This document shows, one piece after another, positions 1-11,577 of a stretch of 11,577 nucleotides of DNA (its first letter is position 1; each line of letters begins with the position of its first letter). The notes below the pieces were generated by a model. That model was given only the letters and a program-made list of their open reading frames with translations. It was not told the DNA's origin and searched no databases. Origin of the DNA: Anaerolineales bacterium (lineage in GTDB: Bacteria > Chloroflexota > Anaerolineae > 4572-78 > NAK82); NCBI GenBank assembly GCA_024643945.1, contig JAHELX010000136.1, positions 1 through 11,577 of the forward strand. The letters run 5' to 3'. The position numbers were made by a program, and so were the translations under genes.

Positions 1-1
1 G

Positions 2-859
2 GCGATTGGGCTCCTCCAGGCTACACCGGACCATGTAGATCTTGCGTTTAAGCTCAAGCCCGGCGACCGCCACCTCAACTACGTACCCCCGTTCGACGGC
101 ACAAGCTGTCGCCAGGGTGGAAACAAATGACACCCCAAATCCGGCTGTGACCGTCCGCACGATAGCCTCGGCATTGCCCAACTCTAAAAAAACATTCAGA
201 TCATCCAGCGTGATATCGTGTTTGGCCAGCTCAGTCAGCATGACCCGCCTTGTCCCAGAGGCAGGTTCGCGAACGATCATCGGTTCTTCCACGAGCTCCC
301 AGGGTTCGATACCTGCTCGAGAAGCCCAGGGATGACCGTGTGGCACGATCAAGGTAATCGAATCCTTGAAAAACTCTTGACACTCGAGCCCGTTTGTACA
401 GATGTCATAACTGCTGACGACACCCAGATTCGCCTCGCCTTCCAGCAAGCGGGGGACAACATGCTCTGGCGTGCAGGTCAGAATGCTGACCTGAATCCCA
501 GGATATCGCCGGCAGAAGCGAGCGGCCAGTAGAGGCAAAATATACTTGCCGGCCGTTGTGCTGCAAGCGAGTCTGAGATGGCCGGCGACCCCCTGCTGTA
601 GTGATGCCATCATTTCTTGTATCTCAATCGCCTGGTGGATGACTTTGCGCGCCCGCGGCAATAGCAGGCGACCGGCCTCGGTTAATTTGAGATTGGATCC
701 AGAACGGACAAACAACGCCACGCCCAGCTCTCTCTCCAGCGTTTTGATATGATGGCTGATCGTTGGCTGGGTGAGGTGCATATGGTTGGCGGCATCAGAA
801 AAGCTCAAGTTTTCAGCCGCGTGCAGAAATGACTTGAGTTTAATAAGGTCGGTCACCAT
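2..859 (-). CDS. LysR-type transcriptional regulator, C-terminus cut by window edge
   Basis: Reading from ATG at 859 gives 286 residues with no stop before the window edge. LysR proteins are usually 290-310 residues, so only the last few are missing. The N-terminal 60 residues form the winged helix-turn-helix (FLHAAENLSFSDAANHMHL, then TQPTISHHIKTLERELG, then LFVRSGSNLKLTEAG), followed by a linker helix and a periplasmic-binding-protein-like effector domain starting near GHLRLACSTTAGKYILP. The start is well supported by GGAGG five to six bases upstream (AAGGAGGCAAAAAATG). The effector domain is of the CysB/CbbR kind, but the ligand cannot be read from sequence. LysR regulators often control a divergent neighbour, but here all upstream DNA is remnant genes in the same direction, so the target is either beyond position 1 or the remnants themselves. 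Family assignment is sure; target and ligand are unknown. Confidence 0.93.
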   Translation of the reverse strand, partial: MVTDLIKLKSFLHAAENLSFSDAANHMHLTQPTISHHIKTLERELGVALFVRSGSNLKLTEAGRLLLPRARKVIHQAIEIQEMMASLQQGVAGHLRLACSTTAGKYILPLLAARFCRRYPGIQVSILTCTPEHVVPRLLEGEANLGVVSSYDICTNGLECQEFFKDSITLIVPHGHPWASRAGIEPWELVEEPMIVREPASGTRRVMLTELAKHDITLDDLNVFLELGNAEAIVRTVTAGFGVSFVSTLATACAVERGYVVEVAVAGLELKRKIYMVRCSLEEPNR

Positions 860-870
860 TTTTTGCCTCC

Positions 871-975
871 TTAACTTAGTGCAAACATACCCTCGCGCGT
901 CTCCAATACCAGGGACATATCATTGCGATAGGGGTCGGGCTGCCAACCGTCACCATCAGGTACAAAACTCAACAC
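871..975 (-). pseudogene. MBL-fold hydrolase fragment (remnant)
   Basis: A short minus-strand reading frame of 34 residues (possible GTG at 975, TAA at 871) encodes DGWQPDPYRNDMSLVLETRE followed by GMFALS. This resembles the internal segment of MBL-fold metallohydrolases of the dihydropterin/MptE-like group, in which a DPF-xx-D-x-ALV-xxT-x-GLVVL stretch precedes the GCSH/GCAH metal-binding motif. Here the frame stops exactly where that motif should begin, and neither the N-terminal HxHxDH site nor the C-terminus is present. The open frame extends slightly upstream to a TGA near 1010. It ends just before the LysR ribosome binding site. I infer a decayed fragment rather than a working small gene. 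The similarity was recognised by eye over about 25 residues, so it is tentative. Confidence 0.42.
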
Positions 976-994
976 ATTCCTGACCTCCGCCCGG

Positions 995-1253
995 TCACGC
1001 CGGCTTCAGGCCAAGGACCGGTGTGCCGTCGATGGCGTCCAGAGCCCGCACCCGTAACACGTTCCCCTCCACCGACACCAGGTCCATCACCGTTACGCCG
1101 CTGGGATTGGGGCGTCGCGGGCTGCGCAGGCCAAAGACCCCTTTTCTTGGGTTGTTGGCACGCTCAATAACCACGGGTGTGTAGATCGCCCGCGTCGGCG
1201 ATCTCGATCACAGCGTTTGGCTGTTCCAATTTTTCAAGAACCCAAGCTCGCAT
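995..1253 (-). pseudogene. Truncated, frameshifted TrmO/TsaA (UPF0066) methyltransferase remnant
   Basis: The minus-strand frame ending in TGA at 995 encodes IYTPVVIERANNPRKGVFG, LRSPRRPNPSGVTVMDLVSV, then VLRVRALDAIDGTPVLGLKP and a final A. This is the signature C-terminal half of TrmO/TsaA (YaeB) proteins, SAM-dependent enzymes that methylate N6-threonylcarbamoyladenosine at tRNA position 37: the GVFATRSPxRPNPIGL block and the LDxLDGTPVLDIKP block. Only about 65 residues are present, against 120-160 or more in the family. That frame is closed by a TGA upstream. The nearest good start, ATG at 1253 (GGGGGG upstream, 9 bases after the preceding stop), lies in a different frame and stops at 1164 after 29 codons. 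The gene therefore has both a large deletion and a frameshift. Those 29 codons begin MRAWVLEK, like zinc alcohol dehydrogenases. Confidence 0.72.
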
Positions 1254-1262
1254 TTTTCCCCC

Positions 1263-2837
1263 CTATACCACGTGGGCGCCGGCGTAACGGTCCCTGAGGG
1301 TTTCGTTCAGACCTTCCCGGTCCATCCTGACCGCCAGAGGCAGGTAGTCGAGTATATCCTGGGCTGTTATGCCATCTTCCCCTTTGTCCTGGGCTGCCAG
1401 GTCTCCGGAGAGGCCGTGAATAAAAACACCCTTCCTGACCCCATCTTGAACAGACAAACCCAGGCCGAACATGGCAGCAATCGTACCCGTCAGGACATCG
1501 CCTGACCCGGCTGTGGCCATACCGGAATTGCCGCTCATGTTAACAAATACCCTCTCATCGGGATATCCAATCAGTGAATGAGCGCCTTTCAGAACGACGA
1601 TGGCGTTCAGATCACTGGCAGTACGCTGCAGGACATCGACTTTGTGGGTATCTATGTCGCGAACACTTTTAGCTGTGAGTCTGGACATCTCGCCCAGGTG
1701 AGGCGTGAGAATCGTCTCCACCTGCCGCTCTCTCAAAATCTGCAAATCCGCACACAACGCGGTGATGCCATCACCGTCTATCAGCAGCGGTTTGCTTATC
1801 TCCCGTGCCAATTCCCTGGCGAGTTGCTGCGTCTCCTCGGCCAGAGACAAACCTGGACCCAGGACCACCATATCCATTTTCTCTGATAGCCCCAGCAGGG
1901 CGCCCTTGTTCTTCAGGGCGATGCTACCCGACGAGGTTTCTTCCTGAGGCACGAAGACGATCTCGCTCCCTTTCGTGGCGATAAAGGGCGTAACGGATTT
2001 GGGAGCGGCCAAACGAGAATAGCCGCCACCTGCCTTGAGAAAAGACAACGCAGAATAATAGGGCGCGCCAAAGTAGCTGGCAGCTCCGCCGATAAACAGG
2101 ACCTGGCCAAAATCCCCTTTGTGTCCCTTCTTGTGCCTGGGGGGCAGATCTGGGGTATGATTGATTTCCACCTTCAACGAGTCCGCGTTGTAAATCGAGG
2201 GTGGAAAAGATATGTGGGACACGTAAAGCTTACCGCATAGGTCGAATCCGGGGTAAAGTATATTGCCTATCTTGGGCAGGCCGAAGGTTACCGTGTAATC
2301 CGCCTTCACCGCTGTCCCCATTACTTGACCCGTATCGCCGTGGACACCTGAGGGGATGTCGATACTGAATACCATTTTTCGGCTTTGATTGATCCGTTCG
2401 ACGACGTCGCAGTACAGCCCTTCAACATCGCGGGTGAGTCCCGTGCCGAAGATAGCGTCTACGATGGCGTCACACTGGGTGATATCTGTTTCTATCGCCT
2501 CGACAGACTCAAGCCGTTGCACTTCTACGGGCAATCGGGACATGACATCGAGGTTGATTTTCGCCGCACCTTTGAACTTAGCTGGGTCGCCTAAGATGAA
2601 AACCTTAACGCCCCCCCCATTTGAGTGGATCTTTCTGGCAACGACAAAGCCGTCACCTCCGTTGTTGCCGATGCCACAGAAAACGAGAAATGCTCTGTCT
2701 TCGATGCCGAACTCGTTTCGGATAACGGAGTATACGGCAAGCCCTGCATTCTCCATTAAGAGCTCTTCGACTATGCCGAATTTCTCTATGGCGGTCCTAT
2801 CCAATCCTCTCATCTCGGAGACCCGGCTGACTTTCAT
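1263..2837 (-). CDS. nnr: Bifunctional NAD(P)H-hydrate epimerase / ADP-dependent dehydratase
   Basis: This 524-residue protein repairs hydrated NADH and NADPH (NADHX/NADPHX) in the cytoplasm. The N-terminal domain (about 1-215, YjeF_N) equilibrates the S and R epimers and shows LMENAG, GIGNNGGDGFVVARKI, DAIFGTG and SIDIPSGVHGDTG. The C-terminal domain (about 225-515, ribokinase-like YjeF/NnrD) dehydrates the hydrate using ADP and shows KGHKGDFGQVLFIGG, VLGPGLS, LLIDGDG, LTPHLGEMSRL, VVLKGAHSLI and ATAGSGDVLTG, the last being the nucleotide-binding and catalytic loop. Length and domain order match the bacterial Nnr fusion. The ATG at 2837 has a strong GGAGGGGG Shine-Dalgarno sequence. A G8 run within the codons for Asn-Gly-Gly-Gly (plus-strand C8, 2611-2618) is a slippage-prone site but the frame is intact. 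This is a housekeeping gene, and its position says little about the neighbouring system. Confidence 0.97.
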   Translation of the reverse strand: MKVSRVSEMRGLDRTAIEKFGIVEELLMENAGLAVYSVIRNEFGIEDRAFLVFCGIGNNGGDGFVVARKIHSNGGGVKVFILGDPAKFKGAAKINLDVMSRLPVEVQRLESVEAIETDITQCDAIVDAIFGTGLTRDVEGLYCDVVERINQSRKMVFSIDIPSGVHGDTGQVMGTAVKADYTVTFGLPKIGNILYPGFDLCGKLYVSHISFPPSIYNADSLKVEINHTPDLPPRHKKGHKGDFGQVLFIGGAASYFGAPYYSALSFLKAGGGYSRLAAPKSVTPFIATKGSEIVFVPQEETSSGSIALKNKGALLGLSEKMDMVVLGPGLSLAEETQQLARELAREISKPLLIDGDGITALCADLQILRERQVETILTPHLGEMSRLTAKSVRDIDTHKVDVLQRTASDLNAIVVLKGAHSLIGYPDERVFVNMSGNSGMATAGSGDVLTGTIAAMFGLGLSVQDGVRKGVFIHGLSGDLAAQDKGEDGITAQDILDYLPLAVRMDREGLNETLRDRYAGAHVV

Positions 2838-2868
2838 CTACCCCCTCCTTCCAAGGTATTATTTCGTT

Positions 2869-2898
2869 TTATGAAGCTTCCATCCGCTCACTGTTCAT
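2869..2898 (-). other. Nine-codon mini-ORF with strong ribosome binding site
   Basis: The 127-bp gap between the FmdB gene and the NAD(P)HX repair gene holds GGAGGTGA, six bases, then ATG at 2898 and the codons for MNSERMEAS before TAA at 2869. The Shine-Dalgarno sequence is better than those of several full genes here. It could be a leader peptide, the surviving 5' end of a deleted gene, or chance. The rest of the gap shows nothing I can name apart from a short GCCG/CGGC inverted repeat near 2931-2943. Confidence 0.25.
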
Positions 2899-2964
2899 CT
2901 CTTCTCACCTCCCTCATCCAGCAATCATCGCCGAGCGCCGGCTGGGAACTTGGGCTAGAGATGC

Positions 2965-3162
2965 TTAACGCCTCGGCATGCAGGTAGGACAGATAGGCTC
3001 ACTGGCGGAGCCAGAGGTCCGAAGCCCAAAGGCTGAGAGAAGCTTCTCGACCTTCCGCCCGCCGCATTTAGGGCACTCTATTTCTTGCAGGGAGTTTATG
3101 GAACGCACGAGCTTCTCGAACTTCTCCCCGCACTCCAAACACTGATATTCGTAGATGGGCAT
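2965..3162 (-). CDS. FmdB-family zinc-ribbon protein
   Basis: The 65-residue protein begins MPIYEYQCLECGEKFEKLV, the hallmark of the FmdB/CxxC_CxxC_SSSS putative regulatory family (first named from formamidase operons). Cysteines at 8, 11, 30 and 33 form the two CxxC knuckles of a zinc ribbon. Further cysteines at 58 and 61 (CPTC) lie near the C-terminus, where many members have a similar tail. Length is normal for the family. I chose ATG at 3162 because all members start at this Met-Pro-Ile-Tyr. An in-frame GTG at 3171 abuts the AGGAGG-like sequence too closely to be used. Function is not established for the family; binding of nucleic acid or a regulatory role is assumed. It lies between the ene-reductase and nnr, possibly with its own promoter. 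Confidence 0.9.
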   Translation of the reverse strand: MPIYEYQCLECGEKFEKLVRSINSLQEIECPKCGGRKVEKLLSAFGLRTSGSASEPICPTCMPRR

Positions 3163-3199
3163 TTGTCTCACCTTCCTCCGTGCAGATTTTCAAGTCGAG

Positions 3200-3234
3200 G
3201 CTATCGGGGCGTTTCCATCTCACGTCAAGACGTG
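3200..3234 (-). promoter_or_regulatory. Possible sigma-70-type promoter overlapping a palindrome
   Basis: On the minus strand, TTGACG (3228-3223) is followed after 17 bases by GATAGC (3205-3200), a good -35 with a weak -10 (3 of 6). The -35 sits inside the inverted repeat CACGTC-TT-GACGTG (3221-3234), six bases each side of a two-base centre, which could be an operator. It lies about 40 bases before the FmdB start, so it could start transcription of the FmdB gene and nnr independently of the ene-reductase. This is based on pattern only. Confidence 0.3.
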
Positions 3235-3257
3235 CCTGGGGAACCCCCCTACCAGGC
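3234..3257 (-). repeat. Inverted repeat directly after the ene-reductase stop
   Basis: On the minus strand GCCTGG and CCAGGC flank a G-rich centre, and the arm begins at the base after the TAG stop codon. It could fold into a six-pair hairpin or a slightly longer imperfect one. There is no U-tract after it, so a classical intrinsic terminator is not supported; transcript 3'-end protection or chance are alternatives. Confidence 0.3.
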
Positions 3258-5240
3258 CTACACCGTCCGCCCGACCTCGAACCCCTCGTAAACGGCATCT
3301 AGCACCTCGCGCGGTTCCACACAGTCGCCGATGGTGTAAACATCCGGCCGGCCTGCCAGGGCATCGGCCAGGGAGCGGTCGGCGCGCAGTCCCAGGGCGA
3401 TGATCACTGTCTCGGCCGGGAAGCGGAGTTCAGGAGCTTCCTCCTGCCGGGGCCAGGGTTGGGCGACGACGGTGGTCTGACCTTGCTCGTCTGTCTCGAA
3501 GCGAACCACCTCCACACCAGTGCGCACTTCTACGCCAAGGGACTCCAGCCGGCGTAGGAGGAGTGCCCACGCCAACGGATCCAGTTTCCTGCCGATTTCA
3601 GGCCGGCGTTTGACCACAATGCACCGTATCCCGCGCCCGGCCAGGTATTCGGCCACCTCCATTCCCGCCGTCCCCGCGCCCACGATAAAAGCTGTCCGAG
3701 TAGAGACTTCGGCCCGACCGTCCAGCAGGTCGTAGGCCGTCATCCAGCGGGTCTCTTTCAGCCCCGGGAAGGGGGGTACGATGGGCTGAGCACCGGTCGC
3801 TATCACCACCGTGTCCGGCTTCTCGGTGGCGATCGTCTCCGGGGTGACCTGGGTGTTCAAGTGCACCTCCACACCGCTGCGCTGGAGTTGCACCTGCTGG
3901 TAGCGGATCAGATCAGCGAACTCCTCTTTGTACGGCACCTGAGCCGCCTGGCGGAAACGCCCACCGAGCCGGTCATCCCTTTCGTACAGGGTGATGTGGT
4001 GGCCCCGTTGGGCAGCGATGATGGCCGCCTCCATCCCCGCTGGCCCGCCACCCGCCACCGTCACCTGGCGCGGTTGTTCGGCCGGCGTGATCTGAACCTC
4101 GGACTCGCGTCCGGTGAGCGGGTTGAACAGGCACGACGTGCCGTGCCCCTTGCGCAGTTCGGTCAGACAGCCCTGATGGCAAGCCGCACAGCGCAGGATG
4201 GCCACCTCATCGCCGGCTTCCGTCTTACTTACCCAATCGGGGTCGGCCAGGAAAGGGCGTCCCAGCCCGATCCAGTCGGCCTGTCCCAGAGCCAACGCCT
4301 CGCGGGCCACGTCGGGGGTGCGGATACGCCCGGCCACCGCCACCGGAATGGAAACGCGGCTGCGGATGCGGGCGGACAACGGCAACAGGTGGGCCTTCGG
4401 GGTGCCAATAGGATAGAGGCAATAGGCCACCGATTCGCACATCGTGCCAGAGGTGACACTCAGCGCATTCACTCCGATTCTTTCTAGGATGGGAGCTATT
4501 ACCTCCGCATCCTCGATAGTCAGGCCACCTTCCACATGGTCTTGAGCGTTCATGCGCACGACGATGGGGAAATTGATCCCTACTGCCTCTCGCACAGCGG
4601 CGATGACTTCCCGCCCAAAACGCATCCGGTTCCCCAATGAGCCGCCGTATTCGTCGTCGCGGCGGTTGGTGTGGGGGGAGAGGAACTGGTGAATCAAATA
4701 GCCGTGGCTGAAGGGGATCTCGATAGCGTCGAATCCCGCTTCACGGACGCGGCGGGCAGCCTCGGCGAAGCAGCGAACGTAGGTGGGGATCCCCTCCAGG
4801 GTCAACGAACGGGGAATAACCTTATTGGCCGCGCAGAGCACTTCAGAGGCGGAGACGCGCTCGCCTTCCGGCACCAGCGTGGGGTTAGCAACCCGGCCGG
4901 CGTGGTTGATGTGTGCCATGATAAGTCCGCCAGCCTCGTGCACCGCATCGGTTAAGTGCCGCAGCCCCGGGACGAGTTCGTCATTGTGAATCCCCATCTG
5001 GGTGGGGATCTCTCGGCCATTGGGGTGGATATACAGTGGCTCCGTGGCAATAAGCCCCACACCACCCGCCGCCCGACGCACGTAGAAGGCAATGTGCCGC
5101 TTCGTCACCTCGCCCTGGGGGGTGCCATAGCCCAGTTTGATGGTTGTCATCAGCACACGATTGGGCAACTTCAAGCTCGCTATAGTCAGCGGTTGAAACA
5201 GCATTTCCGTGTTCATCTCTCTAGCAGCATGCTCGGTCAT
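3258..5240 (-). CDS. Old Yellow Enzyme / 2,4-dienoyl-CoA reductase-type FMN, FAD, [4Fe-4S] oxidoreductase
   Basis: This 660-residue protein has the three-part layout of the 2,4-dienoyl-CoA reductase, 2-enoate reductase and trimethylamine dehydrogenase family. An FMN-binding TIM barrel (about 12-345) includes HGYLIHQFLSPHTNRRDDEY, with Tyr181 at the place of the catalytic tyrosine, and GLGRPF near 325. A [4Fe-4S] motif C351-x2-C354-x3-C358-x11-C370 follows, then an FAD domain (GGGPAG at 397-402) and an NAD(P)-binding Rossmann segment (GAGTAG at 521-526). The family passes hydride from NAD(P)H through FAD and the cluster to FMN and reduces an activated C=C bond. The substrate cannot be told. 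The flavin-linking cysteine region of trimethylamine dehydrogenase is not evident. ATG at 5240 follows GGGGGTGAGGG and overlaps the upstream methyltransferase stop as ATGA, implying translational coupling. The gene is GC-rich. Confidence 0.93.
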   Translation of the reverse strand: MTEHAAREMNTEMLFQPLTIASLKLPNRVLMTTIKLGYGTPQGEVTKRHIAFYVRRAAGGVGLIATEPLYIHPNGREIPTQMGIHNDELVPGLRHLTDAVHEAGGLIMAHINHAGRVANPTLVPEGERVSASEVLCAANKVIPRSLTLEGIPTYVRCFAEAARRVREAGFDAIEIPFSHGYLIHQFLSPHTNRRDDEYGGSLGNRMRFGREVIAAVREAVGINFPIVVRMNAQDHVEGGLTIEDAEVIAPILERIGVNALSVTSGTMCESVAYCLYPIGTPKAHLLPLSARIRSRVSIPVAVAGRIRTPDVAREALALGQADWIGLGRPFLADPDWVSKTEAGDEVAILRCAACHQGCLTELRKGHGTSCLFNPLTGRESEVQITPAEQPRQVTVAGGGPAGMEAAIIAAQRGHHITLYERDDRLGGRFRQAAQVPYKEEFADLIRYQQVQLQRSGVEVHLNTQVTPETIATEKPDTVVIATGAQPIVPPFPGLKETRWMTAYDLLDGRAEVSTRTAFIVGAGTAGMEVAEYLAGRGIRCIVVKRRPEIGRKLDPLAWALLLRRLESLGVEVRTGVEVVRFETDEQGQTTVVAQPWPRQEEAPELRFPAETVIIALGLRADRSLADALAGRPDVYTIGDCVEPREVLDAVYEGFEVGRTV

Positions 5241-5932
5241 CCCTCACCCCCTATCTCCAACTTCTCCGCCCCCAGCAACCGCACATAGCCAAAGTAATAG
5301 CGGTGAGCCTGGAAATCACCGAAGCCCTGCTTCCGCAAGACCGCCCTCCAGTCCCGCCGCACAAAGTCGGTCGCCAGAGGGCATTCTAAATGACGAAAAG
5401 CAAAGCGCACGGGCCAGGACGATTGCTCCGGCTCAAACTCGTTGTAGTCCAAGACGAGAAACTGCCCGCCGGGCCGGAGCGCCCGGTAGACGTTTTCGAT
5501 GATGCGCAGCCGATCCTCCTGGATAAAGCCGTGCAGAACGAAGGAGATAAAGACCTTGTCAAATTCCTCGCGGTAGGACAAGGTTTCCTCAATACGCTGC
5601 TTCTCCATCGTAACGTTCGGCAGATGGCGGCATCGCCGCCGGGCCTGCGCCAGCATCTCCTCGCCGATGTCCAGCCCCACGATCCGTCCCTGGTCGGAGA
5701 GATAGCGGGCCATCAAGCAGGCGTTGCGCCCGCTGCCCGATCCCAGATCAAGGATGGCGTCTCTTGGCTGGATCGCCATATCCCGCACGACCCGGCGGAT
5801 GAAAAAGGGATAGGTGCCGGCCGTGATGAGGTTCATCAGCAGGTCGTAGTGACGGGCTTCGAAGCCCTCAACCTTAACCTTGGAATCTGAACGGTCGTAA
5901 GTCTGGTTCAAACTAATACCCCGCTTTTCCAA
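5237..5932 (-). CDS. Class I SAM-dependent methyltransferase (UbiE/Methyltransf_11-like)
   Basis: The 231-residue protein has the class I fold motifs: motif I ILDLGSGSGRNACLMARYL, the acidic end of strand 2 in VGLDIGEEML, and the post-strand-4 segment LRPGGQFLVLDYNEF. The N-terminal stretch GFEARHYDLLMNLITAGTYP belongs to a family of small soluble methyltransferases of anaerobes with unknown substrate. Its tight ATGA coupling with the ene-reductase suggests that both act on one small molecule, perhaps a lipid or quinone-like compound; that is inference. The start is uncertain. The longest frame begins with TTG at 5932, directly beside the hairpin at 5933-5965 and without a clear Shine-Dalgarno. 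TTG at 5911, seven bases after GCGGGG, is an alternative, and no ATG occurs before residue 33, which is already inside conserved sequence. A stop lies within the 3' overlap. Confidence 0.88.
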   Translation of the reverse strand: MEKRGISLNQTYDRSDSKVKVEGFEARHYDLLMNLITAGTYPFFIRRVVRDMAIQPRDAILDLGSGSGRNACLMARYLSDQGRIVGLDIGEEMLAQARRRCRHLPNVTMEKQRIEETLSYREEFDKVFISFVLHGFIQEDRLRIIENVYRALRPGGQFLVLDYNEFEPEQSSWPVRFAFRHLECPLATDFVRRDWRAVLRKQGFGDFQAHRYYFGYVRLLGAEKLEIGGEG

Positions 5933-5965
5933 AGACCCTAAAGGTTTCCCAAACCTTTAGGGTCT
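5933..5965. repeat. Perfect 15-bp inverted repeat with 3-nt loop
   Basis: AGACCCTAAAGGTTT at 5933-5947, a CCC loop, then its exact complement at 5951-5965. The stop codon of the transporter (TAG, 5938-5940) is inside the downstream arm on the minus strand, so the last residues of the transporter (DPKGLGNL) are encoded by the repeat. The methyltransferase's TTG start directly follows. The hairpin is strong, but the following minus-strand sequence (TTGGAAAAG) has no U-tract. It may be a mobile palindromic (REP-like) element, an attenuator or an mRNA stabiliser. It somewhat resembles palindromes I associate with Chloroflexota intergenic regions. Confidence 0.85.
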
Positions 5966-7308
5966 GGCAGACGCCGCGTCAACAGCGCCCCCACACCGAT
6001 AAACGACGCGGCGATGAGAAACAGCGCCGGGTACGACCAGCGTTGCAATAACGCGCCGGCTGCCAGTGATAGAAACGCCACCGGCAGGATCAGCACGGCG
6101 TTCAGCGCGGCGTAAGTGGGACGCTCGGCGGCAGGGGCCAACTCCAGCAATGCGCTGGAAAAGCCTACGTCGCGTCCGTTGAAAGTGGCCCCGCCCAGGA
6201 AGATCACCGGCAGCAGCCCGGCCCATCCCAGACGCCCCAGTAGAATCGCCGACAGCGGTGTCAACATTGAGGTGACAGCGCAGGTGGCGAGCATACGACG
6301 GCTTCCATACCGGTCTACCAGCCGCGCCCAGACCAGGTTAGCCAACACGCCGCCCAGCACCTGAGCCAGCACGAACCAGCCGATGGCCCCCGGCGGCGCG
6401 CCCAGCTCTTGCCGGGCGTAGACAATGTAAAACGGTAGCACCATCAAGCTGAAGCCGGTGAGAAACTGCACGCCGATCAACGTCCGCAGGCGATGCGCCG
6501 ATTTCAGAAGTTGCTCGCGATACACCCGCCACGATGGAACCTTCCCATCGGCGTCGGCGCGAGGCGGCTCGCGGATGAGCCAGAAGCCCAGCGAGGCCAC
6601 GAGCAGCGAGAGCGCCGCCAACCCAAAGAGCAGCGCATAGTTGGTCGGATAGGCCATACGCACCAGAACTCGCTGCGCCAACAGCGCCGCGCCCACGGCC
6701 AGCGGCCCGGCCAAAGCCTGCCGCCCACCAAAGAAAGCGCCGCGTCGCTCCTGCGGGATGACCTTGCCGATGATGTCGGTGTAGGGAACGCCGCCCAACC
6801 CGCCGCCGGCGTAAAAGACGGCCAGCAGCCCCACCAGCACCCAGGCCAACACCCGAGGGCGGCTGGCCCCGATGGCATAGGTCAGCCCGGCCAGCGCGCC
6901 CCAACTGGCCACACGCAGGTAGATGGCTAACATCAAGTAAGGCATCTTGTACGGGCGCGGTTCGATCCAGCGGGCGACGAAGAGCTGCGGCAGCGCCCCG
7001 GCCACCATGAGCACCGTCGCAAGACCGCCCACCCAGATCGTCGAGCCGGTCAGGTCGGCGACGAAAGCTGCGACGACCGTCGCCGGCTGGGTGAGAGCCG
7101 TCCCCAGGGCCAGGAACGCGCCGTGCCACAGCGCACTGAAAAAGTTGCGCCGCTCCAACGGAGTCAAGCTCGTACTCACAACCCCGGCATCCTCAACAAA
7201 AGCCGCAAGCAGTCGGGGCGCAGGTTGAACATCGACGCATGCCGCCGGGACTCCCGACAAACCTCCCCGGACTTGGCCGCCGGTTCCTCCATCAGTTGAC
7301 TTTTGCAT
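5938..7308 (-). CDS. Major facilitator superfamily transporter
   Basis: A very hydrophobic protein of 456 residues from the longest start, with about 12 predicted membrane segments arranged in two halves. They are separated by the charged loop REPPRADADGKVPSWRVYRE near the middle. The loop after helix 2 carries ARWIEPRPYKMPY, in the place of the MFS motif A region, and a second motif A-like site is LVDRYGSRRMLAT. It would move a small solute across the cytoplasmic membrane by proton coupling; the substrate is unknown. The ATG at 7308 overlaps the upstream gene by 17 bases and yields a polar 43-residue leader that the family lacks. GTG at codon 44 (position 7179) gives a normal 413-residue protein (VSTSLTPLERRNFF), so that start may be the true one. 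The C-terminus lies inside the inverted repeat. This is the most GC-rich gene of the window. Confidence 0.9.
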   Translation of the reverse strand: MQKSTDGGTGGQVRGGLSGVPAACVDVQPAPRLLAAFVEDAGVVSTSLTPLERRNFFSALWHGAFLALGTALTQPATVVAAFVADLTGSTIWVGGLATVLMVAGALPQLFVARWIEPRPYKMPYLMLAIYLRVASWGALAGLTYAIGASRPRVLAWVLVGLLAVFYAGGGLGGVPYTDIIGKVIPQERRGAFFGGRQALAGPLAVGAALLAQRVLVRMAYPTNYALLFGLAALSLLVASLGFWLIREPPRADADGKVPSWRVYREQLLKSAHRLRTLIGVQFLTGFSLMVLPFYIVYARQELGAPPGAIGWFVLAQVLGGVLANLVWARLVDRYGSRRMLATCAVTSMLTPLSAILLGRLGWAGLLPVIFLGGATFNGRDVGFSSALLELAPAAERPTYAALNAVLILPVAFLSLAAGALLQRWSYPALFLIAASFIGVGALLTRRLPDPKGLGNL

Positions 7309-7999
7309 CTCCGCTATCCCGAAGCGTCTCTACACCAGCCGGAGAAAGACTGTCTATCAGCAGCCCCTTGAAGCGGTCAAGGGTGATGGGGTGGAATTCC
7401 ACCTCCAGGCCCGTCCAGTCGAACAGTTCCAGGATCTCTTCGCCGTGTTGGATCAAATACTCCTCGGCGATATCGAGGCCGTCCACGACGACGATCTTGT
7501 CGTAGAACCCCGGAAAGTTCGCGTTGGCGTCGGCGTTATCCCAGCCGAAATATCTCTGATAGACCGCCTTCCAGCTCTTAAGCCAGCCCGGTGTGAACCA
7601 GAGGATCTTGTCTTGCCTACCCCCGCCGATGCACTGCCGATCCTCGAAACCGGCCAGCATGTCGTAGCCGTACTCTCCCTGCACCCTGACGATCCCCTGG
7701 CCATGGGCGTGTAAGATCGAATCCAACCGCTTGAGCGGATCATCGGTGTTGACGTAGCACTTCTTCCCATACACGACGATGATCCTATGTTCGGGGCACC
7801 ATGCCCGGGCCTGCGTCAGCCTCCTGAGAAGGTGCTCCTCCAGTTTGTGCGGCAGGGCGTGCAGTCCCGGCGGCGTGAAAAGAACCCGGCGTGGATTCAA
7901 GAAGCCGGTCTGCATCAGGTGGCTTATCTCCGGGTGCAACATGCCGCAAGATATGATGCAGCGGTCCTCAAATGTTGTGAGACGGAGCATCCCAGCCAT
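7292..7999 (-). CDS. DUF1638 protein
   Basis: A 235-residue soluble protein. The DUF1638 pattern is visible as ISCGMLHPEI near 16-25, a PPGLHALP segment near 43-50, VVYGKKC at 75-81, GYDMLAGF near 111-118 and WFTPGWLKSW at 134-143, with a C-terminal part holding VEFHPITLDRF. Conserved cysteines (18, 81, 123) and His22 could bind a metal or cofactor, which is inference. DUF1638 genes are often found beside methylamine or corrinoid methyltransferases in anaerobic bacteria and methanogens, but the biochemical role is not established. ATG at 7999 has a strong GGAGG eight bases upstream. The longer frame to 8023 begins with TTG lying before that ribosome binding site and is unlikely. The gene ends inside the annotated 5' end of the transporter. 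It stands 40 bases after cooT and probably belongs to the same transcript. Confidence 0.82.
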   Translation of the reverse strand: MAGMLRLTTFEDRCIISCGMLHPEISHLMQTGFLNPRRVLFTPPGLHALPHKLEEHLLRRLTQARAWCPEHRIIVVYGKKCYVNTDDPLKRLDSILHAHGQGIVRVQGEYGYDMLAGFEDRQCIGGGRQDKILWFTPGWLKSWKAVYQRYFGWDNADANANFPGFYDKIVVVDGLDIAEEYLIQHGEEILELFDWTGLEVEFHPITLDRFKGLLIDSLSPAGVETLRDSGDAKVN

Positions 8000-8021
8000 C
8001 CCTCTTTCCTCCCTCCCTGGC

Positions 8022-8039
8022 AATCGGCCTTCGCCGATT
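8022..8039 (-). repeat. Small hairpin between cooT and the DUF1638 gene
   Basis: AATCGGC and GCCGATT flank a four-base loop, and the first base of the arm is adjacent to the cooT stop codon. On the transcript the loop is GAAG. No U-tract follows, and the DUF1638 ribosome binding site starts a few bases later. It may tune expression of the downstream gene or protect the upstream mRNA rather than terminate. Confidence 0.4.
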
Positions 8040-8273
8040 TCAGGCAGGCTCGCCCTTTTGTCTTGTCTTTTGGTATGAATCAGTGGCCACCTTTTCTAGA
8101 ATGATCGAACCGTTCACTAGATCGATGCTCTTAATGTTGGCCTGAAACAGCCTGCTTTCCCCCATAAGCGTGATCAACTGAAGCCCGTGGCTTCCAGGCT
8201 TGATCCAGGCCACATCATGCATCACCTCTTCTTTTTGGCCATTGTGGTCAACGTAGACAGTAGCTAAACACAT
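8040..8273 (-). CDS. cooT: CooT-family nickel-binding protein
   Basis: A 77-residue protein starting MCLATVYVDHNGQKEEVMHD, typical of the CooT family (annotated earlier as a predicted RNA-binding protein). In Rhodospirillum rubrum CooT is a small homodimer that binds nickel, with Cys2 involved, and helps mature carbon monoxide dehydrogenase. Here Cys2 is present, followed by VAWIKPGSHGLQLITLMGES and an IKSIDLVNGSIILE strand segment, matching the family fold. Two ATG codons are adjacent (8276 and 8273). I choose the second because it puts cysteine at position 2 and gives five bases after AGGAGG instead of two. The upstream CooC-like gene's TAG stop is part of the ribosome binding site TAGGAGG, so the two are tightly coupled. 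A direct role for this protein in nickel delivery here is inferred from the family and the CooC neighbour. Confidence 0.88.
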   Translation of the reverse strand: MCLATVYVDHNGQKEEVMHDVAWIKPGSHGLQLITLMGESRLFQANIKSIDLVNGSIILEKVATDSYQKTRQKGEPA

Positions 8274-8282
8274 CATCGCCTC

Positions 8283-9053
8283 CTAGAGCAACCGATCCCA
8301 TATCCTCCCGATGTTCCCTTCCACCTTGTCGCTACAGATTGGACGCCCTTCCAGGCCTGCCTGAAAAATCTCTGGTTCGTAGCCGATGGATCCGATGACA
8401 GGTATGCCCTTCTCCTCCAATTTTCCTCTTAATCTCAAAGCGATCTCCTCCGACGTAATCTTGTTGAGGATAGCCCAAGCGCTCTCTATGCCAACCTCGG
8501 TAGCAAGGGTTTTGATCTTCTCGGTAAGCTCTAATGAATCGAAGGAGGGTTCCGTCACGATAAGCACACTGTCCACACTTGTCTCAACGCCTCTGCCAAA
8601 ATGCTCTACACCGGCCTCCATGTCGACGAGGGCCACTTCATCCTCCTGCAAGGAGAGCCTCTTCAGAAACTCACGGCTCAGGGCGCCCATGGGGCAGGCA
8701 CAGCCTTCAAGCGATTGGAGGATCTTGCCTATACAAACCAACCTGATGCGATCCTTCTCCACCACGTATGGGAGGGGAAGTTCTCTCGTTTGGATCTTAT
8801 CCCGCGTCAGGACACTCTCTGGGGACTCCGAGTCCTTGGAGAAGGCTTGAAACACCTCCTTTTTCCCCCCAACGAGCTCCAGCAACGGTTTGGGTCTATC
8901 TTCGAAGCCAAGTATTCGATAAAGCCCTGGATTCGACTCATCGGAGTCAACGACTAATATTCGGTACCCTATCTTTCGTAAGCCATTTGCCAGGAGAGTG
9001 ACGATAGAACTCTTCCCACTGCCACCCTTCCCGCAGACTGCAATCTTTTTCAT
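8283..9053 (-). CDS. cooC: CooC/AcsF-like nickel-insertion ATPase
   Basis: From ATG at 9053 this is a 256-residue MinD/ParA-superfamily ATPase beginning MKKIAVCGKGGSGKSSIVTL with the deviant Walker A at 8-15, and VDSDESNPGLYRILGF next. The CxC motif C118-A-C120 in EGCACPMGALSREFL and VDMEAGVEHFGRG at about 142-154 are signatures of CooC and AcsF. These are dimeric enzymes that use ATP hydrolysis to load nickel into carbon monoxide dehydrogenase or acetyl-CoA synthase, with the CxC pair binding the metal at the dimer interface. The reading frame is open 53 codons further upstream, but this extra part overlaps the decayed adenosyltransferase fragment and is not family-like. AAGGGG stands six bases before the chosen ATG. 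Coupling with cooT supports nickel work; the target enzyme is not in the window. This gene is noticeably less GC-rich than its neighbours. Confidence 0.9.
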   Translation of the reverse strand: MKKIAVCGKGGSGKSSIVTLLANGLRKIGYRILVVDSDESNPGLYRILGFEDRPKPLLELVGGKKEVFQAFSKDSESPESVLTRDKIQTRELPLPYVVEKDRIRLVCIGKILQSLEGCACPMGALSREFLKRLSLQEDEVALVDMEAGVEHFGRGVETSVDSVLIVTEPSFDSLELTEKIKTLATEVGIESAWAILNKITSEEIALRLRGKLEEKGIPVIGSIGYEPEIFQAGLEGRPICSDKVEGNIGRIWDRLL

Positions 9054-9150
9054 GCCAAGCCCCTTTCCATTGTTGCCTGAGTCCTCCTCGGCCGCATCTT
9101 CCCTGCCGATAACCTGAATGCGTTCGAGTGCAAACACAAGGCCAGGTATG

Positions 9151-9256
9151 CATTCCGTGTCCCGCCGCACGCAGGGCCAGGCCCAAGGCAGCCGTTGTTT
9201 TTCCCTTGCCATCGCCCGTGTAGACCCTTAGAAAGTCGCTGACGGCCCATGTTCAT
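9151..9256 (-). pseudogene. Cob(I)alamin adenosyltransferase (CobO/BtuR) N-terminal fragment
   Basis: On the minus strand, 9225-9151 encodes 25 residues, VYTGDGKGKTTAALG then LALRAAGHGM. This is the P-loop start of CobO/CobA/BtuR corrinoid adenosyltransferases, which make adenosylcobalamin from cob(I)alamin and ATP. Functional members are about 170-200 residues; similarity here ends after residue HGM. The only plausible start, ATG at 9256 (MNMGRQRLSK), is in another frame and would need a one-base shift at the GG before GTC to join. Upstream in the P-loop frame there is a TGA. No ribosome binding site of note is seen. So both a frameshift and loss of the last five-sixths are present. The rest of the gap to the cooC start at 9053 holds no gene I recognise; it reads through in the cooC frame. 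Confidence 0.7.
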
Positions 9257-9258
9257 GT

Positions 9259-10272
9259 TTATTGCCCATCACGAGGGTAAAGGGTCCACATTCGAGCCAG
9301 TTCGTCTTCCTCGCAGCGGATCTCCGCGTAATGCATTGCCTGGCCGTCCCGCAGCACGCGTACGCCACCACCCTCTGTGACACGACCCGCGAAGGCGAAA
9401 GGCGTCGCCAACTCTTCCAGGGCCTTGCTCACGTCTTCTGCTCGCTCCGGCGGAACGGTGACTGCCAGCGTTCCAGAGGAGATCATCCGCAGCGGGTCGA
9501 ACCGGAACGCCTGGGCGAAGCGAGAGACGACGGAGGGAATCGGCAGTCGAGAAAACTCCACTTCGATACCAACCTCCGATAGATAGGCAATTTCCAGCAG
9601 CGTTTCCAGGATTCCACCGCGGGTCACGTCGTGCATGGCTGTCACACCTTTTGAGGCTAGTACCAATGCCTCCGGAATAACACTGACCCCGGCCATCACG
9701 CGCCGGGCTTCCTCTAACTCCTCCTCACTCAAGCCGAGCGTGCGCCCTACATCGGCGAAATCCTGCGCCAGAATAGCTGTCCCTTCCAGTGCAATCCCCT
9801 TGGTGACCAGCACCTGATCACCTACCCTGGCTCCGCGGGTCAACACCGGCTCACGGCCCGACGCCGTCCCCAGTGCTGTTACGGCGACCAGCGGCCGGGA
9901 GAGTCCTGCTGAATAACCGGTATGCCCTCCGATGATAGACACCCCGATTTCTCTAGCTGCACGACTGGCATCGCGCATAATTTTCTCCAACAGATCGACT
10001 TCTTCCATCCGGGGCACCAGCACCAGTAACTGGAGCCAGCGAGGTTGGATACCACTGGCCGCGACGTCGTTACAGGCCACGTGCACGGCCAGCCAGCCGA
10101 TGTCCCCGATGGCGCCGACGATGGGGTCCACGTGGGAGACAAGGATGTCGCCTCCGACCCGCGTCAGCGCCACGTCCTCGCCGAAAGCGGCACCCAGAAT
10201 GATGTCAGGATGATTGGCCTGGGCGAAGGGGAAGACACACCTCTGCAGGACATCTAGTGAGAACTTTGACAT
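9259..10272 (-). CDS. HypE-like AIR-synthase-family protein
   Basis: A 337-residue protein of the AIR synthase / PurM superfamily (HypE, ThiL, SelD, PurM), which use ATP to activate a carbonyl or carboxyl group. The N-terminal half shows FGEDVALTRVGGDILVSHVD, the aspartate-containing nucleotide/metal region, and WLAVHVACNDVAASGIQPRW, which matches HypE-type sequences. IIGGHTGYS and AMHDVTRGGILETLLE are further superfamily motifs. It lacks the conserved C-terminal Pro-Arg-Ile-Cys of true HypE, the site that carries the cyano precursor, ending PRDGQ instead, so it is unlikely to make hydrogenase cyanide ligands. ATG at 10272 is preceded by AGGAGGTGACG. A GTG six bases upstream is inside the ribosome binding site. 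Its place between the MinD-ferredoxin ATPase and cooC suggests a role in cofactor or metalloenzyme assembly, but the substrate is unknown. Confidence 0.87.
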   Translation of the reverse strand: MSKFSLDVLQRCVFPFAQANHPDIILGAAFGEDVALTRVGGDILVSHVDPIVGAIGDIGWLAVHVACNDVAASGIQPRWLQLLVLVPRMEEVDLLEKIMRDASRAAREIGVSIIGGHTGYSAGLSRPLVAVTALGTASGREPVLTRGARVGDQVLVTKGIALEGTAILAQDFADVGRTLGLSEEELEEARRVMAGVSVIPEALVLASKGVTAMHDVTRGGILETLLEIAYLSEVGIEVEFSRLPIPSVVSRFAQAFRFDPLRMISSGTLAVTVPPERAEDVSKALEELATPFAFAGRVTEGGGVRVLRDGQAMHYAEIRCEEDELARMWTLYPRDGQ

Positions 10273-10310
10273 CGTCACCTCCTAAGGACGCACCCTTCGG
10301 CGACTCTGAA

Positions 10311-11195
10311 TCACGTGACTAAGAAGGTGTCCGTGATATACGTCCATACCTCCCTCAGCGCCTCTGTCACCGGGCCATCGGTGTAGGCGGTGACGGGCAG
10401 GCCGCTTACCATTGCGTCCGTCACCACGGTATCGTAGGGAATGCGGCCCACGACTTCTACATTCCGTCGCCTGCAGAAGTCGATGATCTCACGGGAACGG
10501 GCTGAGTTCAGGTCCGCTTTGTTGATGATCACTAAGGACGGCACTCCAAAGTGATCAGTGGTTGCCATAATGCGATCCAGGTCGTGCACACCAGAGACAG
10601 TGGGCTCCACCACGTGGAGTGCCACGTCCGCACCGGCACACGCAGAGATAACCGGACAGCCGATACCGGGAGGCCCGTCCACCAGCAACAAGGCCGCCTC
10701 CGTGTCTTCCGCAAGGAGTCGAGCCTGCTGCTTGACCAGCGTGACCAGTTTACCGGAGTTCTCCCGGCCAGCGAAAAGTCGCGCATGGAAGAGGGGGCCG
10801 AAGCGGGTGTCGGAGCGAAACCACTGTCCGTCCCGCTGTTCCTTCATATGGATAGCCGCTACCGGGCACTGGTAGTGGCAGGCAGCGCATCCCTCGCAGG
10901 CCAACGTGTCAACCCGGTACACATCGTCGCCCGGAATGATCGCCTCAAACCGGCACACCTGATAACAGGTACCGCATGCGGTGCACTTTGCCGGGTCAAT
11001 CACCGCTACCTTGCCACCTGCAAAGTCCTGTGCCTCTTGCTGGCTGGGAGCGAGCACAAGTTCCAGGTTGGCCGCGTCCACATCGGCGTCGGCCAGGACG
11101 AGACGCAGTTCCCGCGAGGCCAGATGGGCTAGCGCCGCCGCCACGCTTGTCTTGCCGGTGCCTCCCTTGCCGCTGAGAATTACCAATTGCTTCAT
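10311..11195 (-). CDS. MinD-superfamily P-loop ATPase with inserted ferredoxin domain
   Basis: This 294-residue protein starts MKQLVILSGKGGTGKTSVAA with the deviant Walker A of MinD/NifH-like ATPases, then LADADVDAANLELVL. A two-cluster ferredoxin domain is inserted: C71-x2-C74-x2-C77-x3-C81 and C100-x2-C103-x2-C106-x3-C110-Pro. The MinD core resumes with LLLVDGPPGIGCPVI and VVEPTVSGVHDLDRIM. This family (COG1149) occurs in pairs in anaerobes, and a second copy ends upstream at 11448. The exact role is not established; coupling of ATP hydrolysis to electron transfer or to Fe-S protein assembly is plausible. ATG at 11195 matches the family start; GTG at 11201 is better spaced from AAGGA and adds two residues. 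It is separated from the ferredoxin gene by 44 bases and followed by the AIR-synthase-family gene after 38. Confidence 0.93.
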   Translation of the reverse strand: MKQLVILSGKGGTGKTSVAAALAHLASRELRLVLADADVDAANLELVLAPSQQEAQDFAGGKVAVIDPAKCTACGTCYQVCRFEAIIPGDDVYRVDTLACEGCAACHYQCPVAAIHMKEQRDGQWFRSDTRFGPLFHARLFAGRENSGKLVTLVKQQARLLAEDTEAALLLVDGPPGIGCPVISACAGADVALHVVEPTVSGVHDLDRIMATTDHFGVPSLVIINKADLNSARSREIIDFCRRRNVEVVGRIPYDTVVTDAMVSGLPVTAYTDGPVTEALREVWTYITDTFLVT

Positions 11196-11239
11196 GTGCA
11201 CCGATTTCCTTTGTGTCCGTAGCAGTACAGAGCGGGCCG

Positions 11240-11464
11240 CTAGGCTTGGAGTTGGATGGCCTCAACCGCACAGATGCAGGCTGCCGTCCTAACACACTCC
11301 ACCAGCTCATCAGGTACCTGTCCAATCTCAGGGTCGCCATCAATCCGGAAGGCCGGTAGGATGCGGCAGGTGCCGTCTATTTCATCGTCTTCAAAAACCT
11401 CGGCGCAGGCGATGCTACATGACCCGCAACCGATACACTTCTCTTGATCAATCATCACTTTCAT
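11240..11464 (-). CDS. Small ferredoxin, probably single [4Fe-4S]
   Basis: A 74-residue electron carrier. The N-terminal motif C10-IG-C13-GS-C16-SIA-C20-AEVFEDDE belongs to the monocluster ferredoxin type (Fer4_13/15), and the C-terminal half has CVRTAACICAVEAI with cysteines at 57, 63 and 65. The usual Cys-Pro before the last helix is here Cys-Ala, and the total of eight cysteines (also C33) is more than a single cluster needs, so a second or altered cluster cannot be excluded. It lies between two MinD-type ATPases and is likely their electron partner. ATG at 11464 is chosen (AGAGGAAG upstream); a TTG at 11491 adds nine non-conserved residues. It overlaps the stop of the upstream ATPase by 17 bases, which points to one transcript. 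Confidence 0.9.
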   Translation of the reverse strand: MKVMIDQEKCIGCGSCSIACAEVFEDDEIDGTCRILPAFRIDGDPEIGQVPDELVECVRTAACICAVEAIQLQA

Positions 11465-11576
11465 TCGACTTACTTCCTCTGCCGTGTACAAGCTCCTCCA
11501 GACGCTGCCAGAGGGTTGAAAAGTTTGCGCGATAGCCTGGCAGTGCGTCCACCAGCGGCACTCCTTCCGAGTATGC
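11448..11576 (-). CDS. C-terminus of a second MinD-superfamily ATPase (partial)
   Basis: The last 42 codons read AYSEGVPLVDALPGYRANFS, then TLWQRLEELVHGRG and SKSNESDD before TGA at 11448. A YAEGxPLVEALPEY-like segment followed by a final helix with LWxRL is the usual end of the MinD-family ATPases that accompany the ferredoxin-containing type. The rest of the gene lies beyond 11577. The identification rests on a short C-terminal stretch plus the known pairing of these genes, so it is fair rather than certain. It overlaps the ferredoxin gene by 17 bases. Confidence 0.7.
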   Translation of the reverse strand, partial: AYSEGVPLVDALPGYRANFSTLWQRLEELVHGRGSKSNESDD

Positions 11577-11577
11577 T

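Follow-up and report, generated by a model that had tools for sequence, protein, structure and literature searches.

Which enzyme is served by the metal-handling genes gathered on one strand of an 11,577-nucleotide stretch of Anaerolineales bacterium DNA (assembly GCA_024643945.1, contig JAHELX010000136.1, positions 1 to 11,577; hereafter the window)? A first-pass annotation, made from the sequence alone, had read seven minus-strand genes as one block: two MinD-type ATPases, a ferredoxin, a HypE-like protein, CooC, CooT and a DUF1638 protein, which may act together to activate a nickel or corrinoid enzyme. As a conserved unit this block is ruled out, since none of the 12 relatives' loci that we compared holds the full set. 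What recurs, beyond chance expectation and in a manner we consider partly confirmed, is the grouping of a CooC-type ATPase (CooC_w), CooT and a divergent DUF1638 protein (DUF1638w). This suggests a core of three genes for nickel handling, centred on a DUF1638 branch put to new use and set inside a loose neighbourhood: a variant of CooC/CooT maturation with a candidate client.

The two Coo proteins are recognizable by their metal motifs. CooC_w aligns to the crystallised CooC1 (3kje) over 238 residues (E 1.2e-15), with both cysteines of the CxC motif aligned, and carries the P-loop KGGSGKS, including the signature lysine, and the CxC metal motif GCACPMG. Together with five relatives, 67-76% identical to the window protein, it forms a clade of its own; its identity to three CooC proteins of acs operons is 22-27%. 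The ATPase domain and the CxC motif mark it as CooC-type; a CooC would also bind nickel and activate CODH (carbon monoxide dehydrogenase) in an ATP-dependent manner. A CODH gene (cooS/cdhA) beside it, the remaining mark of a CooC, was not found in the window or in the DUF1638w loci of 12 relatives; no whole-genome search for CODH was made. CooT scores 61.4 bits against PF10133 (cut-off 27), matches the structure 6fan with Cys2 aligned, and is by profile score and by its cysteine at position 2 a member of its family. Other CooT genes were seen in two relatives, close to a hyp-like gene set in G007 (L105:9862-10074) and to a CbiM-like transporter gene in G009 (L107:506-703), the hyp and CbiM names being given by eye; in these places CooT is thus not tied to CODH operons. 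(G and L numbers denote genomes and loci of our sets.)

The order CooC-CooT-DUF1638w is uninterrupted in the window and in two further Chloroflexota genomes (G001, G002). In G748, from another phylum, the trio is contiguous except for one open reading frame of 107 amino acids between CooC and CooT. Elsewhere the arrangement is looser. The CooC_w/CooT pair of G004 lies ~4 kb from DUF1638w, with two COG1149 genes in between (a number that we take to denote MinD ATPases with an inserted ferredoxin); CooC_w of G010 lies 1.5 kb from DUF1638w, after which the contig ends, and CooT was not found in that genome. CooT directly follows DUF1638w in G009 and is ~5 kb away in G007. The fetched DUF1638w loci of G003, G005, G006, G008 and G068 contain neither CooC_w nor CooT.

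We compared the gene content of 11 DUF1638w genomes with that of 69 others (G011-G080 minus G068, all of one class, with G249 in place of G080 for the CooC_w count). Six of the positives (G002, G004, G006, G007, G008, G010) came from outside the first sample of 199 genomes, G010 from another phylum; G748, found later as the twelfth DUF1638w genome, stands outside all of these counts. CooC_w at 67% identity or more occurs in 4/11 DUF1638w genomes and 0/69 others (Fisher p 2e-4), and CooT in 9/11 and 18/69 (p 7e-4), the p values here and below ignoring kinship and draft completeness. Within the genomes tested, CooC_w is thus confined to those with DUF1638w, and CooT lies within 5 kb of DUF1638w in five of the 11. 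At the level of loci, 13 DUF1638w loci (the window included, 5-21 kb each, with query proteins taken from DUF1638w loci) were set against 16 control loci of our own choosing (acs, CooT, RACo and HypE loci). CooC_w was found in 6 versus 0, COG1149 in 5 versus 0, and CooT in 7 versus 4, the four CooT-positive controls having been picked for holding CooT. The counts of 6, 5 and 7 are unchanged when only proteins from other loci are admitted as queries. Genes of the relatives were called by a codon-usage script and named by clustering, with members checked partly against Pfam and partly by eye; the contigs behind the DUF1638 matches and the CooT counts were compared by eye.

The third member of the core belongs to a distinct branch of its family. 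The window protein passes the PF07796 cut-off (58.8 versus 27 bits), and DUF1638w members account for 5 of the 105 PF07796 matches in 199 genomes of one class, scoring 65-69 bits where 95 of the 100 others score 75-176. Four cysteines (Cys14, 18, 68 and 81) are invariant in an alignment of 51 sequences. The branch is rare. Scanning GTDB contigs yielded 10 loci in 10 genomes; a profile search then recovered it in 7/396 genomes of one class and so added G068, and a search in the phylum of G010, which the record of that genome calls Poribacteria, recovered it in 2/84 genomes and added G748. Homologues of the window's DUF1638w at 96-97% identity lie on long metagenome contigs, one of them (P0004) on a contig of up to 36.6 kb. 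The closest relatives of the window's DUF1638 and HypE-like proteins come from metagenomes, and the organism-named ones among the matches listed are Chloroflexota/Anaerolineae.

Does this branch work on nickel or on corrinoids? The neighbours of ordinary DUF1638 genes offer a comparison. Among the best 30 of the 105 matches, inspected with flanks of up to 1.5 kb, 20 adjoin a B12-binding protein, 8 a pterin-binding methyltransferase, 5 RACo, 3 a URO-D protein of the query type and 2 MttB (23 adjoin at least one of these); CooC_w or CooT was found in none of the 30. In the 13 DUF1638w loci, B12 protein, pterin methyltransferase and MttB were not found with one query per family, by which distant members can be missed, and RACo was found once, 1.2 kb from DUF1638w in G068 (L093). 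A URO-D protein ~7 kb from DUF1638w in G748 was overlooked by the URO-D query; on the same contig (L138, L143) we saw many sugar-isomerase-like or unannotated paralogues near it. Ordinary DUF1638 is a corrinoid-side protein, and the neighbours of the two branches differ almost completely. The window itself has no corrinoid protein, corrinoid methyltransferase or RamA/RACo next to DUF1638w, the company expected in a DUF1638 corrinoid-reactivation system. Because the B12 protein adjoins 20/30 ordinary loci and 0/13 DUF1638w loci, and CooC_w/CooT 0/30 ordinary ones, the contrast favours nickel handling over corrinoid reactivation for DUF1638w, narrowing the earlier choice of "nickel or corrinoid" towards nickel. 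We found no paper that combines DUF1638/PF07796 with CooC or CooT in a literature search that lay outside preprints and most subscription papers.

If the core handles nickel, CODH/ACS (ACS, acetyl-CoA synthase) is the likeliest candidate to receive it. ACS was found in 10/11 DUF1638w genomes and 39/69 others (p 0.03). In the Rhodospirillum rubrum CODH operon, cooC, cooT and cooJ mutants require added nickel, and the published cooC/cooT work covered in the same review, as far as its relevant sections go, concerns the nickel loading of CODH, which is also present in 85/111 CooT-containing proteomes (PMC6006190). According to a survey of CODH operons whose main text leaves DUF1638 unmentioned, CooT occurs in 16% of the operons in clade E and in 6.1% of those in clade F (PMC13056359). 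Like cooCTJ of R. rubrum, the window has a CooC-type ATPase adjoining CooT, with Cys2 in CooT and CxC in CooC; unlike it, DUF1638 is added here and the 13 loci hold no CODH gene. The locus also differs from the standard acs operons of the same genomes. In nine acs loci fetched from DUF1638w genomes, RACo was called in five and CooC in three, with CooT and DUF1638w in none; their CooC proteins are the ones sharing 22-27% identity with CooC_w. The fullest of these loci (L095) reads FTHFS-CODH-ACS-CdhD-CdhE-RACo-CooC-AcsE-FolD. The view of the first-pass annotation that this is not a standard CODH/ACS cluster is thus supported; CODH was not found in the window, and none of the DUF1638w loci carries a CODH or ACS gene. 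Neighbours whose Wood-Ljungdahl-type names we partly presume occur near DUF1638w in single loci: FlpD together with a molybdopterin oxidoreductase in L006, a MetV-type domain in L010, and the RACo of L093.

The surroundings of the core are a mix-and-match neighbourhood of Fe-S and metal genes. The same 13 loci contain YKOF-like proteins (6), methyltransferase B (5), MFS (5), Mrp (4), FmdB (4), radical SAM (4), NifX, DUF1847, ZIP, OYE, methyltransferase A and MBL (3 each), NnrDE and TrmO (2 each), and RACo, HypE_w, FlpD and MetV (1 each). In the 16 control loci all families count 0 except CooT (4), RACo (9), FlpD (1) and MetV (1). With queries from other loci only, MFS falls to 4 through loss of the window's own copy, NifX to 2, TrmO to 1, and HypE_w, FlpD and MetV to 0; the rest stay the same. 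In L001, L002, L004, L006 and L093, though not in the window, the genes after DUF1638w encode a small YKOF/thiamine-binding-like protein and a SAM methyltransferase. Thirteen further loci were run apart, and 11 of them (L104, L105, L107, L109, L114, L127, L128, L130, L132, L133, L139) contain at least one family; L100 and L102 contain none, and L112 was left out as lying on the same contig as L009. Comparable gatherings also exist without DUF1638w: CooT, Mrp, COG1149, radical SAM, MBL and FmdB in L104, CooT and COG1149 in L109, and a HypE-like protein, Mrp, ZIP and radical SAM in L114.

Of the two MinD-type ATPases first annotated, the second is complete, and the first is present only as a C-terminal tail of 42 codons. 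The complete one has the domain composition of the COG1149 type, CbiA at residues 4-268 with Fer4 inside it at around 64-117 (Pfam), and is 72-75% identical to homologues in L003, L004 and L009; in the same three loci the upstream COG1149 gene ends in a tail 51-57% identical to that of the window. In L008 and L009, OYE homologues, 76-81% identical, stand no more than 1.5 kb from DUF1638w; the window has its own OYE in the same run. Eight cysteines are common to the three proteins, four of them with 4Fe-4S-like spacing.

The HypE-like protein shares the AIR-synthase superfamily with HypE, ThiL and SelD, and its best PDB match is HypE 2z1t (81 bits). We rejected it as a HypE: it scores 107.5 bits against a HypE cut-off of 251.6, and none of 12 aligned sequences has a cysteine in the last 15 residues, where HypE bears its hallmark, a C-terminal carbamoyl-accepting cysteine. 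It also falls below the ThiL cut-off. Among 400 genomes of the phylum (E up to 1e-80) one orthologue was found, 60% identical, in G249, next to Mrp, ZIP, an Ala_racemase_N-type protein and a radical SAM gene; no orthologue above 39% was found in 80 genomes that partly overlap this set. The protein collection searched supplies at least 120 homologues at 76-93% among the matches listed, without gene context. Not being conserved with CooC-CooT-DUF1638w, the protein is ruled out as a core member. Of the joint activation first proposed, the metalloenzyme-activation unit finds support for CooC, CooT and DUF1638, with the COG1149 pair more loosely attached; the HypE-like protein does not travel along.

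The seven genes are real and lie on one strand, as first annotated (table). The short gaps claimed for them hold with one break: from the COG1149 tail to DUF1638 the spacings are -17, 44, 38, 205, 6 and 40 bp, the ferredoxin gene overlapping the upstream COG1149-type gene by 17 bp, and the 205 bp between the HypE-like gene and cooC contain a cobO remnant of 30 residues. In the loci of the 12 relatives, chance-level PF02572-type matches were the only ones, none comparable to this remnant. The cooC stop codon is indeed part of the cooT ribosome binding site: TAG begins the Shine-Dalgarno sequence TAGGAGG, and the canonical Met-Cys start of cooT comes from the second ATG (8273). The minus-strand run extends beyond DUF1638 to position 995 through genes for MFS (overlap 17), a class I methyltransferase (gap 5), the OYE-type oxidoreductase (overlap 4), FmdB and NnrDE, down to the TrmO remnant. 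L004 has a 143-residue TrmO after NnrDE. The LysR regulator at the edge of the window scores below the cut-off of a selenium-metabolism LysR model.

Table. Features of the window, by position within the 11,577 nucleotides
Feature	Position	Strand	Basis
CooC_w, MinD/CooC-type P-loop ATPase, 256 aa	8283..9053	-	Pfam CbiA; match to CooC1 3kje
CooT, small protein of predicted nickel-binding type, MCLA start	8040..8276	-	PF10133; match to 6fan
DUF1638w, divergent DUF1638 subfamily, 235 aa	7292..7999	-	PF07796 58.8 bits
COG1149-type ATPase with inserted 2x[4Fe-4S] domain, second of pair	10311..11195	-	CbiA + Fer4
First COG1149-type ATPase, C-terminal tail, last 42 codons, cut by window edge	11448..11577	-	translation + stop at 11448
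Small single-cluster ferredoxin, between the two COG1149-type ATPases	11240..11464	-	PF13459 42.4 bits, obtained on the longer open frame 11240-11575
AIR-synthase-superfamily (HypE-like) protein; neighbour outside the conserved core	9259..10272	-	PF00586/PF02769
cobO/btuR corrinoid adenosyltransferase remnant, 30 matching residues	9103..9252	-	PF02572 47.6 bits, profile 4-33 of 172
OYE/2,4-dienoyl-CoA-reductase-type flavo-Fe-S oxidoreductase, 660 aa; looser companion, candidate client	3258..5240	-	PF00724 + Pyr_redox
TrmO C-terminal remnant, after NnrDE	995-1189	-	PF01980 profile positions 56-110
LysR regulator, runs off window edge	2-859	-	NF040786 235.8 bits, cut-off 250

Taken together, these results lead us, tentatively and with slightly more doubt than belief, to read CooC_w, CooT and DUF1638w as a compact module for nickel delivery and activation whose client is encoded elsewhere and is most likely CODH/ACS. 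CooT would buffer nickel, and CooC_w, with its ATPase and CxC metal site, would use ATP to hand it on to a Ni-Fe-S enzyme in its apo form. DUF1638w may be the partner on the client side, presenting or remodelling the client site. The COG1149 pair with its ferredoxin and, elsewhere, Mrp, a NifX-like protein and a RACo paralogue might be the source of Fe-S clusters or of low-potential electrons. The probable client would be a CODH/ACS complex at a separate locus of the kind described above, with neither CooT nor DUF1638w beside it. Several observations weigh against this reading. Once contig-edge fragments are discounted, ACS stands at 9/11 versus 38/69 (p 0.09), so that the association is weak and significance is lost. 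G748 has the trio and no ACS match with PF03598 (4 of 80 genomes of its phylum were positive), and G006 likewise has none, genome completeness being given for neither. All 13 DUF1638w loci lack CODH and ACS genes. CooC_w is absent from 7/11 DUF1638w genomes, and CooC-like (29-34%) and CooT proteins are also present in other contexts. DUF1638w has no known activity, its predicted model gave no confident fold match, with the class II chelatase (CbiK/SirB) fold among the candidates compared, and the copy in G748 is broken across three reading frames.

A corrinoid function, with DUF1638w helping a RACo/RamA-type ATPase to reduce a Co(II) corrinoid such as the corrinoid Fe-S protein, and CooC and CooT co-occurring because the same pathway needs nickel, appears unlikely to us. 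Its precedent is the pairing of DUF1638, a member of the same Pfam family, with RamA/RACo in Phaeobacter and marine bacteria. The Phaeobacter inhibens gene shows cofitness with a RamA-like gene and with a methionine synthase of the split kind, giving DUF1638 a genetic phenotype in B12-dependent methionine synthesis, for which the relevant part of the study offers no specific function proposal (PMC5764234); DUF1638 and RamA rise together in proteomes of R. pomeroyi (PMC12478193). A link to RACo is visible here too. RACo lies close to DUF1638w in G068, the RACo proteins of G006 and G010 are 70% and 55% identical to that one, and RACo is present in 11/11 DUF1638w genomes versus 53/69 others (p 0.07); the cobO remnant of the window and the URO-D protein of G748 point the same way. 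This RACo subtype of three DUF1638w genomes was located at L093:6555-8231, L127:951-2597 and L128:1589-3514, the G006 copy standing beside DUF1847, FmdB and FlpD. However, DUF1638w is divergent and has CooC/CooT where corrinoid-protein neighbours stand in ordinary loci: those neighbours are missing from its loci, as far as one query per family can tell, despite the shorter flanks inspected around ordinary genes, and ordinary loci in turn lack CooC_w and CooT.

The nickel could also go to an enzyme other than CODH/ACS, a non-classical one with Ni or Ni-Fe-S such as the nearby OYE-type oxidoreductase or an uncharacterised protein; we give this some weight while thinking it improbable. It would account for G748, with its trio and no ACS match, and would fit the OYE genes close to DUF1638w in L008, L009 and the window with their conserved, partly cluster-like cysteines. 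The Acetobacterium isr operon offers a parallel: its nickel chaperones HypA/HypB are proposed to have an unexpected client, the isoprene reductase IsrA, a protein of 901 amino acids annotated as glutamate-synthase-type and not OYE (PMC10134865). However, OYE occurs in only 3/13 DUF1638w loci and is not in the fetched stretches of the G748 contig. OYE-family enzymes are not known to bind nickel, which weighs against OYE as the client. Perhaps there is no joint function at all, and metal-handling genes of anaerobes, each with its own client, pile up in a modular, freely shuffled neighbourhood. All 13 DUF1638w loci differ in gene set, CooT, Mrp, COG1149 and radical SAM genes cluster without DUF1638w as well (L104, L109, L114), and the HypE-like gene of G249 sits beside Mrp, ZIP and radical SAM. 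We nevertheless find shuffling a poor explanation: the CooC_w-CooT order beside DUF1638w is kept across two phyla at a CooC identity of 68-76%, and CooC_w was not seen without DUF1638w among 80 genomes.

One further reading is speculative and in our view rather improbable. DUF1638w may be a former corrinoid-side protein that now works with a dedicated CooC/CooT pair, joined in some genomes by a RACo paralogue, as part of a machine that inserts nickel reductively into a Ni centre other than that of CODH/ACS. If so, anaerobic Chloroflexota and Poribacteria-type genomes would hold an unrecognised class of nickel enzyme or of nickel-cofactor assembly. A DUF1638 subfamily with nickel chaperones in place of corrinoid neighbours is a natural contrast to the rest of its family. 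The trio is small enough for study in vitro, and a comparison of the two branches could reveal how DUF1638 acts on a metal centre.

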